From positions 558,001-622,000 of the forward strand of contig NZ_JAGIOI010000001.1 in the NCBI RefSeq assembly GCF_017876675.1: DNA of 64,000 nucleotides. Direction: 5' to 3'. Below are positions 1,159 through 59,104 of the stretch, piece by piece (position 1 is the first letter of the stretch; every line of letters starts with the position of its first letter). The notes beneath the pieces were generated by a model. The model made no database searches and was not told the origin of the DNA. It saw only the letters and a program-made list of their open reading frames with translations. Origin of the DNA: Arthrobacter stackebrandtii. Its GTDB lineage: Bacteria; Actinomycetota; Actinomycetes; Actinomycetales; Micrococcaceae. A program made the position numbers and the translations under genes.

Positions 1159-2376
1159 TTAGTCTTCAAGCTCGGATTCGTCCAGGTCTGATGCGTCGAA
1201 CGCCTCGAACTCGTCGTCGTCCTCAAAATCGTCCATTTCATCCATGACGTCGTCGTAGTGCTCGAGGATGAAGTCGGCAAGCTGTTCGCGTGCCTCGATG
1301 GGCAGGAACGATGCGTGGACCGCATTCAGCGTCAGTTCCAGCACCGTGTCCAGGCCGTAGCCGAAGGTCTCCACGAGCAGCCCGAATTCGCCGCTCAAGG
1401 TCACCCCGCTCATGAGGCGGTTGTCCGTGTTGACGGTGACATTGAAGCCCAGCTGGTGCAGCAGGTCGATCGGGTGCTCGGCAATGGTGGGGCCAAACGC
1501 AGCAGTTGCGCCGGTCTGCAGGTTGGAAGAGGGGCACAGCTCCAGCGGAATCTGGCGGTCGCGCACCCACTGCGCCAAGTCACCCAGGGTGAGGGTTCCG
1601 ACGTCGTTCCCGTCAACCTCCTCCACGTCCAGGTGGATGTCCTCGGCGATGCGCACGCCGTGGCCAAGGCGCAGGGCGCGGCCGTGGACCAGGGCGTCCT
1701 GGATGCTGTCCAGCCCGGCGCCCTCGCCGGCGTGGACGGTGGCCGGGAAGTTGTTCTCGGCCAGGTAGGTGAAAGCCTCCTTGAAGCGCGAGGGCAGGAA
1801 GCCGTTCTCGGCGCCGGCAATGTCGAAGCCGACCACGCCGTTGTCGCGGTGGCGCACGGCCAGCTGGGCGATTTCGGAGCCGCGGTCGGCATGGCGCATG
1901 GCGGTGATGATCTGGCCCACCTCGATGTAGCCGCCGGCCTCATCGACCAGGTCCATGCCCTCCTCGAGGCCCTCCTGGACGGCTTCGACGGCCTCATCCA
2001 GCGAGAGCCCGCCGGCCAAGTGCTGCTCCGGGGCCCAGCGAACTTCACCGTAGACCACGCCGTCCTCGGCAAGGTCCTCAACGAATTCCCGGGCCACACG
2101 CACCAGGTTCCCGTGCGTCTGCATCACGGCAATGGTGTGCTCGAAGGTCTCGAGGTAGCGCTCCAGCGAGCCCGAATCCGCCGATTCCAGGAACCAGGCG
2201 CGCAGCGCGTCGGGATCGGTTTCCGGCAGCTCGTGGCCCGCCTCGGCCGCGAGCTCGATGATGGTTTCGGGACGCAAACCGCCGTCCAGATGGTCGTGCA
2301 GGGACACCTTTGGCAGCGATTTGAGGTCCACAACGGGGATGGACGGGGCTGCTTGCTCTGAAGTTGGGTTAGTCAC
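1159..2376 (-). CDS. add: Adenosine deaminase
   Basis: Zinc-dependent deamination of adenosine to inosine. The 405-residue reading uses a GTG start 10 bp after the DedA stop codon; an upstream ATG at 2403 would overlap the DedA gene and add nine residues. Visible family motifs are HDHLDGG (metal-binding HxH, about residues 27-33), the TVHAGEG loop with metal-binding His and catalytic Glu, LGHGVRI, and TVNTDNRLMSG supplying the catalytic Asp. The last 25 or so residues are an unusually acidic tail (Asp/Glu-rich, ending SELED). It completes the nucleoside salvage set encoded to its right. Function is well supported; the start is less certain. Confidence 0.93.
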   Translation of the reverse strand: MTNPTSEQAAPSIPVVDLKSLPKVSLHDHLDGGLRPETIIELAAEAGHELPETDPDALRAWFLESADSGSLERYLETFEHTIAVMQTHGNLVRVAREFVEDLAEDGVVYGEVRWAPEQHLAGGLSLDEAVEAVQEGLEEGMDLVDEAGGYIEVGQIITAMRHADRGSEIAQLAVRHRDNGVVGFDIAGAENGFLPSRFKEAFTYLAENNFPATVHAGEGAGLDSIQDALVHGRALRLGHGVRIAEDIHLDVEEVDGNDVGTLTLGDLAQWVRDRQIPLELCPSSNLQTGATAAFGPTIAEHPIDLLHQLGFNVTVNTDNRLMSGVTLSGEFGLLVETFGYGLDTVLELTLNAVHASFLPIEAREQLADFILEHYDDVMDEMDDFEDDDEFEAFDASDLDESELED

Positions 2377-2386
2377 GTTTCCCACT

Positions 2387-3367
2387 CTAGGGATGAGTGT
2401 CATGCTGCGCTAGTTTCCTGGGATCCCAGTGCCGCGGCGCACGCACTGCCGCGACCACCGGCAGGGGCGAGGTGCACGGCCCCGGCACGGCGTTATCCGG
2501 CACCACTGCGGGGATTTCCGGGGGATGCCCGACGGCGGGAACCTGCCCGGGTGCCTCCCCCGCGTTCGCCACGGGCGCACCTGCCGCCGGTGTGCCGGCG
2601 CGTCCCTCCGAGCCGTGCCCGGGTGAAGCGGCTTCGGCGGGAGAAGCCTGGGCCTGGGCTGCCGCGGCCTGCGCGGCCTCTGCCTGGACGCGGGCGGCGA
2701 CTTCGGCAGCCGCGGCGCCGGGTGCCGGCCGGGGCGCGATCCGGCCGCGCTTTTCCAGGAAGTGGTGCAGGTATTTCATGGCATGGTCAACGATGAAGCC
2801 AATCGCAATGGCGAAGACGATGGCGATGCCCACGCCCAGCAGCGGGTTGTCGTGAACCCACCGCCCGGCAAAGGTGCCCACGGCCACGGAGTAGCCCGCC
2901 CAGGTAACCACGGCGATGCTGTCGAGCAGGGCGAAGCGGCGCCACGGGAAATAGGTGGCGCCGGCGGTGAAGTTCACGGCGATCCGGCCCACCGGAATGT
3001 AGCGGGCCGTGAAAATAAGCATGGCGCCGCGCTTTTCCAGTTCCTTCCCGGCCCAGGCGAACGCCTTGGCACCGCGCGGGCGGCGCATCCAGGCGAACCG
3101 CGTGGTGCCCAGCTTCCGGCCCATGAGGTACGCGATGTTGTCGCCCACGATTGCCCCGATGGACGCGCCCAGGATCAGCAGCCAAATGTTGGGCTCCCCG
3201 CTGCGCGCGGCAATGGAGGCGAGGGCGACAATGGCGGTTTCGCTGGGCAGGAACAGGAAGAAGCCGTCAATCAGGCAAAAGAGGCTCACCAGCGGAATGA
3301 CCCACCACTGGCTGGCGGAATGCTCAATCAGGACATTCAGCTGGCCGATTATGTGTAAAAAATCCAC
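2387..3367 (-). CDS. DedA/VTT-family integral membrane protein
   Basis: The 326-residue protein has a DedA (SNARE-associated/VTT) domain over about residues 20-210. It begins with hydrophobic WWVIPLVSLFCLIDGFFLFL, followed by the acidic-proline motif LPSET, the GAxxGD segment (GASIGAIVGDNIAYLMGR) and the conserved FTARYIPVGRIAVNFTAGA with functionally important arginines. DedA proteins are inner-membrane proteins tied to lipid-carrier flipping and proton-motive-force maintenance. After the last membrane segment comes a tail of roughly 110 residues, extremely rich in Ala, Pro and Gly. That tail is not part of the family core and is probably disordered and cytoplasmic. The substrate cannot be told from sequence. 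Confidence 0.88.
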   Translation of the reverse strand: MDFLHIIGQLNVLIEHSASQWWVIPLVSLFCLIDGFFLFLPSETAIVALASIAARSGEPNIWLLILGASIGAIVGDNIAYLMGRKLGTTRFAWMRRPRGAKAFAWAGKELEKRGAMLIFTARYIPVGRIAVNFTAGATYFPWRRFALLDSIAVVTWAGYSVAVGTFAGRWVHDNPLLGVGIAIVFAIAIGFIVDHAMKYLHHFLEKRGRIAPRPAPGAAAAEVAARVQAEAAQAAAAQAQASPAEAASPGHGSEGRAGTPAAGAPVANAGEAPGQVPAVGHPPEIPAVVPDNAVPGPCTSPLPVVAAVRAPRHWDPRKLAQHDTHP

Positions 3368-3869
3368 CCTGGACGGTTCCTCTCCGATAGTGGTTGACTA
3401 AACCAAGTTTCCCACGGTGCCCCCCGCGCTGTATCCACCCAGCGGTGGATATTCGACGGCTGCCTCCACTACTTTCGTCGGGGTCTGCTCCGTCCCCGGA
3501 CGGAGCCGCGCCATAAATTGCGACGGCGGACGGCCCGCCTGCCGTCGGGGCCGCGCCGCGGCGGTTGGCTGGATGCGGCGGGTGCACCTGCGTGGCAGGA
3601 ACTTAACCCATGCGCCCGGCTGGAGGCGTCACTTGCGCCACCGCTGCTGCTGCGCACGCGGGGCCCCTGGCCCTGCGCATGGCCAAGGAAGTTTTGCCGG
3701 AGCCCGGCGTGGCAGGAACTTATGCGCAATGCCCACCCGGTGTGCAGCGCATAAACCACCATGCGCAGGACTCAAGCCAGGCGCTGGGCATGAGTGCAGT
3801 GCTGCGCCCGGGAACCAGCCGGGCCCCGTGCCTGGACCAAGTCCCAGGCAGGCACCATGCAGGAGAGCC
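3368..3869. other. 502-bp gene-free stretch with a short direct repeat
   Basis: This gap separates the DedA gene from thymidine phosphorylase, both leftward. I see no convincing coding region; the readings present are Arg/Ala/Pro-rich shadows. The 15-mer CGTGGCAGGAACTTA occurs twice (3591-3605 and 3708-3722), each followed within a few bases by ATGCGC or TGCGCA, and further ATGCGCA words occur around 3750-3770. A short self-complementary stretch (CGTCCCCGGACGG) lies near 3491. The DedA promoter must be in the left part. Confidence 0.5.
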
Positions 3870-5195
3870 TCAGGCGATGCGGTCGATGATCAGCCGGTTG
3901 GCCGGCCGGGACCCCTCCGGGGCGATCACCACGGCCGCGGCCAGCGCCTCACGGGCGCTGGCAAACTTTTCCGGGGTGTCCGTCAACAGCGTCATGAGCG
4001 GCTCGCCCGCCCGGACCAGTGCGCCAGGCTTGGCATGCATCCGCACACCCGCCCCGGCCTGCACTGCATCTTCCTTCCGGGCCCGCCCGGCACCGAGCCG
4101 CCAGGCGGCGACGCCCACGGCCATGGCATCGAGCCCCACCAGCACGCCGTCGGCCGGCGCATACACAACGTCCGATTCCCGGGCCGCCGGCAGCGCCGCA
4201 TCCGGGTCGCCGCCCTGTGCGGAAATCATCCGACGCCACACATCCATGGCCCGCCCGTCCCGCAGGGCGGCGGCGGGATCGGCATCGCGGATGCCGGCAG
4301 CCTCCAGCATCTCCCGCGCCAGCGCGACGGTCAGCTCCACGACGTCTTCAGGTCCGCCGCCGGCCAGCACCTCCACGGATTCCTCCACCTCGATCGCGTT
4401 GCCGGCGGTCAGGCCCAGCGGTGTGGACATGTCGGTCAGCAGCGCCACAGTGTTCACACCGGCGTCCTTGCCCAGCGCCACCATGGTCCGCGCCAGCTCG
4501 CGCGCCCGCTCCTCGGTCTTCATGAACGCGCCCGAGCCCACCTTCACGTCCAGCACCAGCGCCCCCGTGCCCTCGGCAATCTTCTTGCTCATGATGGAAG
4601 AGGCGATTAGCGGGATCGATTCCACCGTCCCCGTCACGTCGCGCAACGCGTACAGCTTTTTGTCCGCCGGGGCCAGGTTTCCGCCCGCTGCACAGATCAC
4701 GGCACCCACCTCGGACAGCTGCCGCAGCAGTGCGTCATGGCTGACGTCCGCGCGCCAACCCGGGATCGCCTCCAGCTTGTCCAGGGTTCCGCCCGTGTGG
4801 CCCAGGCCCCGCCCGGACAGCTGCGGCACGGCAGCGCCAAAGACTGCCACGAGCGGTGCCAGGGGCAGCGTGATCTTGTCGCCCACGCCGCCGGTGGAGT
4901 GCTTGTCCGTGGTGGGCAGCGGCGCCCCGGCCCTGTTGCGCAGCCCGCTGAAGTCAAGCGTCTCGCCCGAGGCGACCATGGCCGCTGTCCACTGCGAGAT
5001 CTCCGACCGGTCCATGCCGTTGAGCAAAATGGCCATGTTCAGGGCAGCCATCTGTTCCTCGGCGATGTCGCCGCGGGTGTAGGCGGCGATGGTCCAGGCG
5101 ATCTGCTCCGGGGTGAGGCGTCCGCCGTCGCGCTTGGCGGCGATGACCTCCACCGCGGTGAACGGCTGGCTGGCAAAGGATTCCTGGGCGTTCAT
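3870..5195 (-). CDS. deoA: Thymidine phosphorylase
   Basis: Reversible phosphorolysis of thymidine to thymine and 2-deoxyribose 1-phosphate. The start MNAQESF is preceded by GAAGGAGC at good spacing; the upstream extension is not protein-like. The 441-residue length is typical. Family hallmarks are the phosphate-binding KHSTGGVGDK and the thymidine/pyrimidine-nucleoside phosphorylase signature SGRGLGHTGGTLDKLEAIPG. Further conserved elements are SSIMSKKIAEG and LDVKVGSGAFMK. It lies 156 bp downstream of cytidine deaminase on the same strand, so pyrimidine nucleosides imported by the ABC system can be deaminated and cleaved. No cytosine-specific or deoC gene is nearby. Confidence 0.95.
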   Translation of the reverse strand: MNAQESFASQPFTAVEVIAAKRDGGRLTPEQIAWTIAAYTRGDIAEEQMAALNMAILLNGMDRSEISQWTAAMVASGETLDFSGLRNRAGAPLPTTDKHSTGGVGDKITLPLAPLVAVFGAAVPQLSGRGLGHTGGTLDKLEAIPGWRADVSHDALLRQLSEVGAVICAAGGNLAPADKKLYALRDVTGTVESIPLIASSIMSKKIAEGTGALVLDVKVGSGAFMKTEERARELARTMVALGKDAGVNTVALLTDMSTPLGLTAGNAIEVEESVEVLAGGGPEDVVELTVALAREMLEAAGIRDADPAAALRDGRAMDVWRRMISAQGGDPDAALPAARESDVVYAPADGVLVGLDAMAVGVAAWRLGAGRARKEDAVQAGAGVRMHAKPGALVRAGEPLMTLLTDTPEKFASAREALAAAVVIAPEGSRPANRLIIDRIA

Positions 5196-34566: not shown

Positions 34567-34649
34567 TGCTGACTCCTGGGTGGACTGCACGAAAAAACTC
34601 TTCTAGGAAAGATTATCGCCAAACACGTAAGTGTTGGCTTTTCGTGACC

Positions 34650-34738
34650 TTTGCGTCCCAGGCGTACGATCGCTTTGGTCTTTGTTCGTGCTGCTCCCCG
34701 GTGGTGTCCCACCTCATCGCCAGTCGCAACCCCTCCAT
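34650..34738 (-). promoter_or_regulatory. ZTP riboswitch (pfl motif) in the glyA-folD leader
   Basis: Read leftward, the three conserved aptamer blocks are in order: GGGGTTGCGACTGGCG (about 34733-34718), CCACCGGGGAGC (34704-34693) and CGCCTGGG (34664-34657), with GAGGTGGGACACCACC closing one stem. These are the hallmark sequences of the ZTP/ZMP aptamer, which typically controls glyA, folD and purine genes. After the aptamer a small hairpin (GCCAACAC...GTGTTTGGC, 34638-34618) precedes the start region. I see no clear terminator, so control may be translational. Confidence 0.88.
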
Positions 34739-35662: not shown

Positions 35663-35686
35663 CGGCCTCCCGCCCTCCCTGTCGAC

Positions 35687-35751
35687 TGTGACGCAGTTAT
35701 TGCACTGGAAAGCGCTTGCTGTCGCTGATTTGATGCAACTGCTGCGTCACA
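35687..35751. repeat. Imperfect inverted repeat between purU and the permease gene
   Basis: Arms TGTGACGCAGTTATTGCA (35687-35704) and TGCAACTGCTGCGTCACA (35734-35751) pair at 15 of 18 positions around a 29-base centre containing the palindrome AAGCGCTT. The genes on either side converge, so it may be a shared terminator, though no T-run is present. Confidence 0.5.
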
Positions 35752-35754
35752 GAT

Positions 35755-44317: not shown

Positions 44318-45223
44318 GTGTTAAAGCGCGCTAAAACATGGGGTCCCGGCGTACTGCTGCTGGCACCCACCATCATCCTGGTTGGCGTCTTCGTCTACTG
44401 GCTCATCATTGAAAACTTCCGGGTCAGCCTCACCAACCAGCACACGGCCAAGCCGAGCAACAAGTATGTCGGCTTTGAGAACTACACCAATCTCCTGGCC
44501 GACCCCAATTTCCAGCACTCGCTGTGGAACCTGCTGATCCTCACGATCGTCTTCCTGGGCGGCACCCTGATTTTCGGCTTCCTGTGGGCCTGGCTCCTGG
44601 AACAGCCTGCCAAGGGCGAGGGCTTCTTCCGCTCCGTATACCTGTTCCCCATGTCCATTTCCTTCATCGCCTCCGGTGTTGTCTGGCGCTGGCTGCTCTC
44701 CAGCCTGCAGACCACCCAGCCCGGCGGCGAACGCACCACGGGCCTGAACCGCCTGCTGGACAGCGTGGGCCTGGGCTTCATGCAGAACGACTGGTGGTCC
44801 AACCCCACCTGGGGCATTGCCGCCATTGCCGTCCCTGCCATCTGGCAGCTCTCCGGCTACGTCATGGCACTGTTCCTGGCCGGCTTCCGCGGCATCCCGG
44901 ACGAGCTGCGCGAGGCTGCGCGGATCGACGGCTGCACCGAGTGGAAGCTGTACCGGCACGTGATCTTCCCCCAGCTCAGCCCGGTCATGCTCTCCGCGAT
45001 CATCATCATCGGCCACATGTCACTGAAGCTGTTCGACCTCATCCGCGCCATCGTCCCGGACGCCAACACTTATGACGTGCAGGTTCCCGCCACGATGATG
45101 TGGGTCAAGTACATCGGCAGCGACTACGCCGATGCAGCCGCGATCGGCATGATCCTGCTGGTCCTGGTGGCCATCGTGGTCATCCCCTACCTCATGTACA
45201 CCTCACGAGCGGAGAAGCGCTGA
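44318..45223 (+). CDS. Sugar ABC transporter permease (MalF type)
   Basis: 301 residues, GTG start with GGAGG seven bases upstream. Six membrane spans; the first is GVLLLAPTIILVGVFVYWLII. The EAA loop for coupling to the ATPase reads DELREAARIDGCTEWKLYRHVIFPQLSPV. The start MLKRAKTWGPG and WRWLLSS periplasmic region resemble glucose/mannose-type permeases. It overlaps the next permease gene by one base (TGATG). No ATPase gene is in the operon; a shared MsiK-type ATPase elsewhere is the normal actinobacterial arrangement. Confidence 0.92.
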   Translation: MLKRAKTWGPGVLLLAPTIILVGVFVYWLIIENFRVSLTNQHTAKPSNKYVGFENYTNLLADPNFQHSLWNLLILTIVFLGGTLIFGFLWAWLLEQPAKGEGFFRSVYLFPMSISFIASGVVWRWLLSSLQTTQPGGERTTGLNRLLDSVGLGFMQNDWWSNPTWGIAAIAVPAIWQLSGYVMALFLAGFRGIPDELREAARIDGCTEWKLYRHVIFPQLSPVMLSAIIIIGHMSLKLFDLIRAIVPDANTYDVQVPATMMWVKYIGSDYADAAAIGMILLVLVAIVVIPYLMYTSRAEKR

Positions 45224-46116
45224 TGTCCACCGCCACAGTGAACAACAAGAAGCGCCTGCGGTCGGCGCAGGACATGAAGTCCGACTCCAAGCGCACCACC
45301 AAGCGGCGCATCAACCGGACCCTGAAGTACGCGATCCTGATCTTCTTCGTGATCATCGTCCTGCTGCCGGCCTACGTCCTGTTCATCACCAGCTTCAAGG
45401 GCACCGCCGACGCCGACCCCTCGCGCGCTTGGTACCTCCCGCAGGTCTGGGAGACCGGCGGCTGGGTCAAGGCCTGGGAAACCCTGGCGCCGTCACTGGG
45501 CCGCACCGTGCTCCTGGTGGTCCCCTCCGCGCTGGTCTCCGCTTTCCTGGGATCCATCAACGGCTACGTGCTGTCCAAGTGGCGCTTCCCGGGTGCGAAC
45601 ATCGTGTTCACGCTGATCCTTTTCGGCATGTTCATCCCGTACCAGGCCGTCATGATCCCGCTGACCCAGCTGGTGAGCAACCTCGGCATTCCCCAGGGCA
45701 TCCCGTCACTGATGCTGCTGCACATTGTCTACGGCCTGCCGATCTGTACGCTGATCTTCCGCAACTACTATGCGTCGGTCCCCGATGAACTCATCGAGGC
45801 CGCCCGCATGGACGGCGCCGGAATCCTGCGCACCTACGGCTCGGTGATTTTCCCCGTCTCGGCCCCCGGCTTCGTCGTGGTCCTGATCTGGCAGTTCACC
45901 TCCGCCTGGAACGACTACCTCTTCGCCGCGTTCTTCTCCTCGGGCCGCAACGGCCCGGTGACGATCGCACTGTCCTTCCTCGCCGGAGGCCAGCTCACCG
46001 ACTACGCCGCCTCCATGGCCGGCGCGCTCATCGCCTCCGTCCCCACGCTCATTGTCTACATCCTGTTGGGCAAGTACTTTGTGGGCGGGCTGATGAGCGG
46101 TTCCGTCAAGGGATAG
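45223..46116 (+). CDS. Sugar ABC transporter permease (MalG type)
   Basis: 297 residues; the start overlaps the previous stop by one base, and the ribosome-binding site GCGGAGAAG lies inside the upstream gene. A basic N-terminus of about 35 residues precedes six membrane spans. The EAA motif reads DELIEAARMDGAGILRTYGSVIFPVSAP. Conserved NGYVLSKWRFPG and the C-terminal YFVGGLMSGSVKG are typical of MalG-family partners. It completes the SBP-permease-permease operon; a strong terminator follows. Confidence 0.93.
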   Translation: MSTATVNNKKRLRSAQDMKSDSKRTTKRRINRTLKYAILIFFVIIVLLPAYVLFITSFKGTADADPSRAWYLPQVWETGGWVKAWETLAPSLGRTVLLVVPSALVSAFLGSINGYVLSKWRFPGANIVFTLILFGMFIPYQAVMIPLTQLVSNLGIPQGIPSLMLLHIVYGLPICTLIFRNYYASVPDELIEAARMDGAGILRTYGSVIFPVSAPGFVVVLIWQFTSAWNDYLFAAFFSSGRNGPVTIALSFLAGGQLTDYAASMAGALIASVPTLIVYILLGKYFVGGLMSGSVKG

Positions 46117-46146
46117 CACCTCCTCCCCAGGCGGGCCCAACGCAGC

Positions 46147-46195
46147 AGGCCCCGTCCGCCGTCGTACTTAATTACGACGGCGGACGGGGCCTTTC
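46147..46195 (+). terminator. Terminator with a perfect 20-bp stem, GCCGTCGT family
   Basis: AGGCCCCGTCCGCCGTCGTA (46147-46166) is the exact reverse complement of 46173-46192, with a six-base loop and a following TTT. It ends the sugar ABC operon. Confidence 0.9.
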
Positions 46196-46230
46196 GCGTC
46201 TCCGGCACCACCCGGCCCGCTCCCCCATCC

Positions 46231-46294
46231 CGACGCTGTCGCAGCACTGGTCAACTTTTCCCCGACGCCGGCGCAGCACTGGTCAACGTTTCCC
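46231..46294. repeat. Two tandem 32-bp repeat units
   Basis: Units 46231-46262 and 46263-46294 are identical at 29 of 32 positions and share CGCAGCACTGGTCAAC. They fill the gap between the sugar operon terminator and a leftward membrane protein gene. A similar 32-bp-period array lies at 59027. Confidence 0.85.
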
Positions 46295-46321: not shown

Positions 46322-46564
46322 TCAGCGGCCGGAGTCGCGCTTTTTGGGGCGGGTGTAGATGATGGGCACTGCGGCGAGGGCGGTGCCGGCGGAGAGCTGG
46401 AGCAGGATCCGGCCCCAGCCCATGGCGATGGTGAAGGCGTCGGAACCGTGCACAGTGGCAAACCAGGCGAAAGCGGTGGCCGCCAACCCAGCCAACAGCA
46501 GCGCGGCCACGACGAAGGCCAGGAACCGGCGGCCGGTGCTGGCGCTGTGCCAGATGGTTCTCAT
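46322..46564 (-). CDS. Small two-span membrane protein, function unknown
   Basis: 80 residues with two hydrophobic segments (about residues 14-35 and 44-69) and charged ends (MRTIWHSASTGRRF..., KKRDSGR). No recognisable family. The start lies three bases after the stop (46568-46570) that the DNA alkylation repair gene would use if its frameshift were corrected, which suggests an operon. The reading is probable because of hydrophobic periodicity and position, but short. Confidence 0.6.
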   Translation of the reverse strand: MRTIWHSASTGRRFLAFVVAALLLAGLAATAFAWFATVHGSDAFTIAMGWGRILLQLSAGTALAAVPIIYTRPKKRDSGR

Positions 46565-58079: not shown

Positions 58080-58583
58080 ATGGAACTCAAAGGAAAACTC
58101 GCAGACGCATTCAACGAACAAATCACGCTGGAAATCCAAGCCTCGGTGGTGTATCGCCAGCTGGCCATTGAAATGGATGTCCAGGACCTCCCCGGAATCT
58201 CCGGCTGGTTCCTGGCCCAGTCCGCCGAGGAGCTGGTGCACGCACAGAAGTTCACCGATCACATGACGGACCGCAGCGCAGCCCCGAAGATTGGCAACCT
58301 GACTGCCCCGGACGTCACCATCAACAGCGTTCTGGAGGCCTTCCAGGCCTCCCTGGCCCACGAGCAGAAGGTCTCCGAATCCATCCGGAACCTCTACCGC
58401 CTCGCCCAGGCCGAGGGCGACATCGATTCCATCCCCCTGCTGAACTGGTTCATCGAGGAGCAGTTGGAGGAGGAAGCTTCGGTTGGCGAGATCATTGGCC
58501 GTGTACGGCTGATCGGCGCCGACGGCAACGGACTGCTGCGCCTGGATGCCGAGCTCGGCGCCCGCAAGGCAGGCGGCGAGTAG
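58080..58583 (+). CDS. ftn: Ferritin
   Basis: 167-residue non-haem ferritin. Ferroxidase ligands are visible in FNEQITLEIQASVVYRQLAIEM (Glu, Tyr), SAEELVHAQKFTDHM (ExxH) and NWFIEEQLEEEASV. Four-helix bundle plus a short C-terminal helix (LRLDAELGARKAG). It stores iron as ferric mineral in a 24-subunit shell. No haem-binding bacterioferritin methionine is obvious. Its leader carries the tandem iron-box candidates, fitting iron-dependent activation as known for mycobacterial bfrB. Confidence 0.95.
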   Translation: MELKGKLADAFNEQITLEIQASVVYRQLAIEMDVQDLPGISGWFLAQSAEELVHAQKFTDHMTDRSAAPKIGNLTAPDVTINSVLEAFQASLAHEQKVSESIRNLYRLAQAEGDIDSIPLLNWFIEEQLEEEASVGEIIGRVRLIGADGNGLLRLDAELGARKAGGE

Positions 58584-58602: not shown

Positions 58603-58726
58603 CAGACGCGGCATCACATAATGCTGTTAAACCCATTACGCTCCCTCACTTGGTGAGGGAGCGTAATGGGTTTAACCACAGAATAATGATGCCGCGTCTG
58701 TGTGGGGTGATGCCGCGTCTGTGTGG
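58603..58726. repeat. Compound palindrome with 24-bp perfect stem and 21-bp tandem repeat
   Basis: Inner stem: 58626-58649 is the exact complement of 58653-58676 (starts GTTAAACCCATTACG), loop of three bases. Outer arms CAGACGCGGCATCA (58603-58616) and TGATGCCGCGTCTG (58687-58700) are also exact complements. The right outer arm is then repeated: TGATGCCGCGTCTGTGTGG at 58687 and again at 58708. It starts 20 bp after ferritin and ends at the stop of a convergent small gene. Confidence 0.85.
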
Positions 58727-58915
58727 TCAGCGCGATCCGGTGGGCGGTATTGCCTCGCCCCGCGGATGCGGCACCACTTCCGGCGGGGTTTCCACGCCGC
58801 CGGCGCCCGACTTGCTGAAACGGCCCACCAACAGCAGCACACCCAGCACCGCCACCACCAGCACAAACACCCCGGCCACCACGTAAACCCACGCCGTTCC
58901 CAACACGTCCACCAC
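58727..58915 (-). CDS. Small single-span membrane protein, function unknown
   Basis: 62 residues: one long hydrophobic segment (YVVAGVFVLVVAVLGVLLLVG, about residues 11-31), then a Pro/Gly/Glu-rich tail (SGAGGVETPPEVVPHPRGE). No family recognised. The reading has a GTG start option at its 5' end and typical codon use, but its length makes it tentative. It lies between a compound palindrome and a tandem-repeat array, both noncoding. Confidence 0.5.
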   Translation of the reverse strand: MVDVLGTAWVYVVAGVFVLVVAVLGVLLLVGRFSKSGAGGVETPPEVVPHPRGEAIPPTGSR

Positions 58916-59026: not shown

Positions 59027-59104
59027 TGGTGCCGCGTTGGGAGAAAACGGGGATTATCTGGTGCAGCGTTGGCCAAAAAAGGGGCTTATCTGATGCCGCG
59101 TTGC
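59027..59104. repeat. Tandem array with 32-bp period, about 2.4 units
   Basis: Units start at 59027, 59059 and 59091 (TGGTGCCGCGTTGG, TGGTGCAGCGTTGG, TGATGCCGCGTTGC). Units 1 and 2 match at 26 of 32 positions, with the conserved block GGGGxTTATC between. The starting word TGATGCCGCGT also occurs in the tandem repeat at 58687. The rest of the 58916-59173 gap is non-coding. Confidence 0.8.

Follow-up and report, generated by a model that had tools for sequence, protein, structure and literature searches.

The element described here is a compound palindrome lying between a ferritin-like gene and a small convergent ORF in the window, by which is meant the whole 64,000-nucleotide stretch of Arthrobacter stackebrandtii DNA that was analysed. 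The genes and features at the locus are:

58080-58583, plus strand: ferritin-like gene, 167 aa, with its stop TAG at 58581-58583; the left half of the element comes after it
58605-58616, minus strand: core of the left outer unit, TGATGCCGCGTC read on the minus strand, beginning 21 nt past the ferritin stop
58626-58676, no strand assigned: centre hairpin with two inverted centre units inside (24-bp stem, loop TTG)
58637-58648, minus strand: core of the left centre unit, TGAGGGAGCGTA read on the minus strand, 32 bp from the outer core
58654-58665, plus strand: core of the right centre unit, TGAGGGAGCGTA
58687-58698, plus strand: core of the right outer unit, TGATGCCGCGTC, 33 bp further on
58708-58719, plus strand: core of the second right outer unit, another 21 bp further, which makes the tandem of the preliminary description
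58727-58915, minus strand: small convergent ORF, 62 aa, with its stop 7 nt beyond the last unit core

The palindrome itself is present as the preliminary description had it, with a 24-nt stem, a 3-nt loop and a duplicated right arm. The inner stem is formed by perfect arms at 58626-58649 and 58653-58676. The outer arms also pair perfectly, as had been claimed, though not only over the 14 bp then given: 58603-58616 pairs with 58687-58700 over 14 nt, and 58603-58617 with 58707-58721 over 15. The two copies of the right arm are identical over 19 nt and start at 58687 and 58708, 21 bp apart. Folded as RNA, the element has a minimum free energy of -97.1 kcal/mol; 200 dinucleotide shuffles gave -45.3 ± 4.2 (z -12.3), and none of them was as stable.

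The outer arms and the inner stem both contain a 12-bp unit of one type, spelled TGATGCCGCGTC in the former and TGAGGGAGCGTA in the latter, at distances of 32-33 bp. There are five such units, two on the minus strand and three on the plus strand; the inner stem contains two inverted TGAGGGAGCGTA units, and the units on either side have TGATGCSGCGTY, the main spelling of this genome. The 21-bp tandem is an additional unit at an unusual step, the only one of its length among the 42 steps of the loci from this genome. The stretch with this extra right-hand unit (58687-58719) has it 21 bp, or about two helical turns, from its neighbour.

In the focal element, two short gene-end arrays converge. 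When it was compared with its own genome by BLASTN, the whole element was found in one copy and short pieces of it at many places. The suggestion that it is MITE-like, or mobile as a whole, was rejected on that single copy together with the partly conserved position, several relatives keeping a similar structure at the same place; no target-site duplication was seen by eye in the element sequence alone. The idea of a plain, position-conserved bidirectional terminator fared better in one respect: some members of the genus do keep the structure in place. Its sequence, however, is that of a dispersed family, and the hairpin at the focal site has no T tail. Rather than a mobile element or a plain terminator, the palindrome is one representative of a family of repeats found at gene ends.

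A family of repeats at gene ends

The unit of the family has a 12-bp core, TGM-NNNN-GCGTY, with an A-rich patch behind it; arrays hold between one and eight of these units, set 32 bp apart. In the own genome (G000, one contig of 4,427,938 bases), the pattern TTATSTGATGCSGCGTY, derived by reading the places where BLASTN had found pieces of the element, has 80 matches at up to two mismatches, compared with 2 for the reversed pattern, and many of the matches are grouped in short arrays with a 32-bp step. The copies are dispersed, mostly intergenic, and also occur in alternating orientation, as REP/BIME elements do; the label "REP-like" in the preliminary description is apt in the loose sense that pieces of the element recur between genes genome-wide. 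Two additional arrays, which that description had missed, lie within the window:

46229-46292, minus strand: third window array, TGC-type, two 32-bp units, between the convergent genes 45223-46116 (plus) and 46322-46564 (minus)
59027-59102, plus strand: second window array, three units at 32-bp steps (cores at 59027, 59059 and 59091), the first two with TGG for TGA

The TGC-type array represents a second form of the family in this genome. Read in the sense of the plus-strand gene 45223-46116, a long hairpin (46140-46199) with a GACGGCGG motif stands before it.

Placement was counted for arrays of 2 to 8 units in seven genomes, against genes called by a simple codon-bias gene caller. The last unit faces the stop codon of a gene on the opposite strand in 107 of the 126 arrays (binomial p 4.5e-16). 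Within these 107, the distance to the stop is at most 50 nt, or there is a slight overlap, in 85, and it exceeds 50 nt in 22; the per-genome medians range from 5 to 43 nt. The 3'-end orientation is absent in the other 19, with the most exceptions in G011 (8 of its 35 arrays). When single units are included for the own genome, 44 of 49 strand-specific arrays face a stop codon; among these 49, the one at 756298 falls within a called gene. If units follow both genes of a convergent pair, the arrays meet with their innermost pair head to head, and it is this pair that forms the hairpin and, with it, the compound palindrome.

For cores that follow one another within 60 nt in the seven genomes, the spacing is exactly 32 bp in 205 of 216 cases, a figure favoured by the choice of the G001, G004, G011 and G223 loci with a 32-bp pattern; in loci from single-unit searches, the step is found in 41 of 42 cases in G000, 24 of 24 in G012 and the only one in G006. 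Because units within an array are often near copies of one another, recent duplication alone could keep the step constant. The likeness of successive spacers averages 83%, reaching 91-92% in G011 and G223 and falling to 70% in G000 and 52% in G004. Recent duplication may thus account for part of the constant step, with G000 and G004 less open to this explanation. The family of gene-end repeats is well supported; what it does, we infer below.

Some other features of the window were observed along the way. The motif AGCACGACGGCG occurs at 14 places with at most one mismatch, against 1.3 expected (e.g. 12725, 17878, 48572, 59151 and 63753), and several of its copies lie in gene-end hairpins, making it a second recurrent gene-end hairpin motif. 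An imperfect 19-nt inverted repeat (CTGTGACGCAG...CTGCGTCACAG) lies between convergent genes at 35686-35752 and does not clearly belong to the unit family. At the gathering score, Rfam covariance models matched the window at one place, a ZTP riboswitch at 34649-34737 on the minus strand, and gave no match at the focal element.

Distribution and dialects

When the spelling is left free and a pair of TGANNNNGCGTY cores at 32-bp distance is required without mismatch, the pattern matches 18 of 23 genomes of the own genus (the own genome counted) and 37 of 41 genomes of a second genus, with three genomes in each set having a single match. Across the family, it matches 10 of 148 genomes, in 2 of 32 genera, and across the phylum 5 of 396 sampled genomes, three of them with one match each. 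The reversed control gave 0 in the family and own-genus sets, 2 matches in one second-genus genome, and one match in each of two genomes of the phylum set. A three-unit pattern found at least 116 stretches in the genomes of named species; among the 80 matches listed, 64 carry the label Arthrobacter, 10 Pseudarthrobacter, 4 Paenarthrobacter and 1 each Sporosarcina and Serinicoccus. The same pattern had no match in viral contigs. The label of the Sporosarcina beigongshangi match (L217, NZ_JADHDY010000002.1) is doubtful and looks wrong, pointing instead to an Arthrobacter-type genus; the match in a Serinicoccus MAG (L272, about 3920-4030) is a single 32-bp tandem array that is probably unrelated and was left out of the family. 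Among the genomes examined, the family is nearly restricted to Arthrobacter-type genera.

The spelling of NNNN differs both between genomes and between arrays. The dialect TGATGCS is found in G000 and G012, TGAGCGA in G001, TGAGGAC in G031, TGAGCGG in G082 and TGAGCAA in G223, while G016 uses TGCAGGA and TGCTGCS; G011 has several dialects in one genome, varying between arrays and mostly uniform inside each. Matches to the TGC-type form exceed those to its reversed pattern in, among others, G016 (66 vs 2), G019 (37 vs 0), G021 (32 vs 0) and both G007 and G008 (24 vs 0 each), with no excess over the control in G011 (5 vs 6) or G018 (7 vs 6); the counts were not used for G000 (81 vs 50) and are to be taken with caution for G012 (30 vs 17).

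The ferritin gene has a homologue (match at E <= 1e-30) in 19 of the 23 genus genomes. By eye, the 3' flank carries a structure of the family type in eight of these (G000, G002 in degenerate form, G005, G006, G011, G012, G014 and G016), in at least four spellings; an ordinary T-tailed hairpin takes its place in G007 and G008 and other hairpins in G019 and G020, and no family member was seen, again by eye, in the remaining seven flanks. Elsewhere, four array-bearing gene ends are common to G000 (42 host genes) and G011 (27), where about 0.3 would be expected by chance (an estimate that assumes some 3,900 genes), and all four are in different dialects; nine array-bearing genes are common to G000 and G012 (16). 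The total of 24 shared gene-end pairs is an upper figure, as some have no visible unit in the 75 nt shown (e.g. L051/L136, L101/L103, the G000 side of L095/L144, and the G223 partners). Judged from these sequences, the position of an array appears to be older than its spelling at shared gene ends.

One explanation for such a distribution is a short interspersed repeat of the REP/BIME type that a transposase spreads and gene ends tolerate. The dispersed, mostly intergenic copies, with opposite orientations at convergent ends, are in keeping with this, as is a copy number that varies greatly among species of the genus, but the preferred orientation to the stop codon and the orthologous positions in different spellings speak against it. 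The RAYT-type transposase domain Y1_Tnp, searched for in the own genome at E <= 0.001, had no match there, whereas the positive control was found in 5 of 14 named genomes; a RAYT-driven REP was rejected on this result from the own genome. We consider this explanation quite unlikely. By analogy with the DNA uptake sequence (DUS) of the Neisseriaceae, the family might instead be a genetic tag: the account of DUS in PMC3630211, as far as it was available, likewise has dialects round an invariant core and inverted, head-to-head pairs at gene ends. Such a tag seems very improbable here, given 80 matches in the own genome compared with about 1,500 to 3,800 DUS in that account, the 32-bp tandem arrays, the few copies inside genes and the several dialects within G011.

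Hairpins, tandem units and a possible role in ending transcription

The head-to-head centres and the tandem units behave differently when folded. In 50 centres, the NNNN positions are paired in 187 of 200 cells, against a mean of 125.6 and a maximum of 149 in 500 shuffles, though these pairings are partly non-independent because both arms of a centre mostly share a dialect; the compensatory changes that maintain the hairpin are partly confounded in the same way. Of 47 inverted pairs, 36 have the same NNNN, as do 49 of 76 direct neighbours, and symmetry in the centres exceeds that between direct neighbours out to about 16 bp (about five bases beyond the core), after which it is lower. Of 100 centre sides, 27 have TTT after the arm, spread over 23 of the 50 centres, compared with 0 of 79 internal units, the latter drawn from seven genomes, fewer than in the centre sample. 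The centre looks like a selected hairpin. Its gap is mostly 5-8 or 15-16 nt; helical phasing of this gap was considered and dropped, as on inspection the longer loops mostly extend the stem.

Inside the unit, no pairing covariation was found. By a strict pattern, 105 of the 126 arrays have no inverted partner, 1 has a poor one and 20 have one with at most one mismatch. The 105 lone arrays have a mean z of -0.38 when folded in the gene sense (10 below -2; per-genome means from -0.96 to +0.83) and of -1.33 in the unit sense (32 below -2), the latter excess coming chiefly from G000 (-2.39) and G012 (-1.73); the G000 core, GATGCSGCGTC, is nearly self-complementary. Given the missing covariation, a hairpin in each unit seems unlikely, but this does not account for the unit-sense excess in G000 and G012. 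The tandem units look like mainly a primary-sequence motif with three-turn spacing.

The simplest function for such structures would be that of a plain bidirectional hairpin terminator, long by chance, with the tandem units as by-products of repeat slippage. This would suit the long-stemmed centre hairpins with arms that change together, the 15-nt loops that mostly lengthen the stem, the spacers that are often near copies, and the other hairpins that stand at the homologous family-free gene ends of four genomes. The focal hairpin, however, lacks a T tail and was not called as a terminator. T-tailed hairpins occur at 21 of 118 array ends and at 43 of 324 others, which is no clear enrichment (p 0.28), and the strongest hairpin is on average weaker at array ends in 7 of 10 classes. 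A canonical intrinsic terminator was rejected on the lack of a T tail at the focal site and of clear T-tail enrichment family-wide. With the inverted partner at the start of only 20 of the 126 arrays by the strict pattern, and with orientation and genome-wide dialects that slippage leaves unexplained, a plain terminator is an unlikely account of the arrays. A Rho rut site, with its C-over-G skew, was also considered, as the G000 unit is C-rich in the gene sense, and was set aside, the G001 and G223 units not being clearly skewed on inspection.

An element read from the mRNA, acting in the 3' UTR on stability or on translation near the stop codon, would explain why arrays often start a few nt past the stop codon in a preferred orientation, and the unit-sense strand is indeed better folded than shuffles in G000 and G012; the portion of PMC12306157 available reports effects on translation of REPs within 15 nt of the stop codon. 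We regard an RNA-level role as distinctly improbable, however, as the units show no pairing covariation, there is little fold excess in the gene sense, and a single-stranded motif would have no need of an exact 32-bp step.

With a centre that resembles a selected hairpin and units that mainly resemble a primary-sequence motif, we favour phased protein sites combined with a hairpin, acting as a transcription boundary. The repeats probably help mark where transcription ends. The fuller reading, to which we give about an even chance, is that the arrays form a 3'-end transcription boundary composed of the centre hairpin and phased sites for a putative factor. It builds on what was observed directly: the units, their 32-bp step and stop-codon orientation, the centre hairpins, and the dialects of genomes and arrays. 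RNA polymerase leaving a gene would meet a row of sites bound by a putative sequence-specific protein, the last unit of the row being close to the stop codon of the gene served; the sites would lie on one face of the helix, 32 bp being about three turns, and at convergent genes the centre hairpin would supply an extra pause or release signal. The dialects might then reflect co-evolution of the sites with a putative NNNN-reading factor, together with homogenisation of units inside arrays. More tentatively, the boundary may be lineage-specific and programmed by sequence, with 32-bp operator arrays whose putative factor shifts its NNNN specificity between species while positions are partly kept.

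Even taken as sequence alone, the family allows gene-end intervals that otherwise lack an explanation to be annotated precisely in genomes of Arthrobacter, Pseudarthrobacter and Paenarthrobacter. If the boundary reading is true, a group of common soil bacteria marks gene ends with species-spelled rows of protein sites that replace or supplement hairpins and Rho. Transcription would then be ended or insulated in a novel manner, with the dialects offering a natural experiment in the joint change of a binding factor and dozens of its sites.

Relation to known repeat systems

A literature search on titles and abstract openings, in which few subscription journals were represented, found no published description of the family. 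The MIRU of mycobacteria are likewise oriented tandem repeats at stop codons in Actinobacteria, with units longer than those of this family. Intrinsic bidirectional terminators share with it the hairpin between convergent genes and, at the focal site, a position that part of the genus has kept. They differ from it in that the focal site has no T tail and most arrays have no inverted partner by the strict pattern. The REP/BIME elements of enterobacteria and pseudomonads, as described in part in PMC12306157, are also short repeats outside genes that lie near stop codons and frequently alternate in orientation; the accessible text of that paper mentions Arthrobacter a single time, in the A. livingstonensis row of a table. 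The present family, unlike them, has a 32-bp tandem step, a preferred orientation to genes, species dialects and no RAYT-type gene in its own genome. The DUS of the Neisseriaceae resemble it in their species dialects round an invariant core and in inverted pairs that the available part of PMC3630211 associates with terminators, but DUS number in the thousands in a genome, whereas the family has 80 matches in its own, lies in arrays of direct units and is mostly found between genes. It thus departs in at least one tested defining feature from each of MITEs, RAYT-linked REPs, intrinsic terminators and DUS, while partly resembling the last three.
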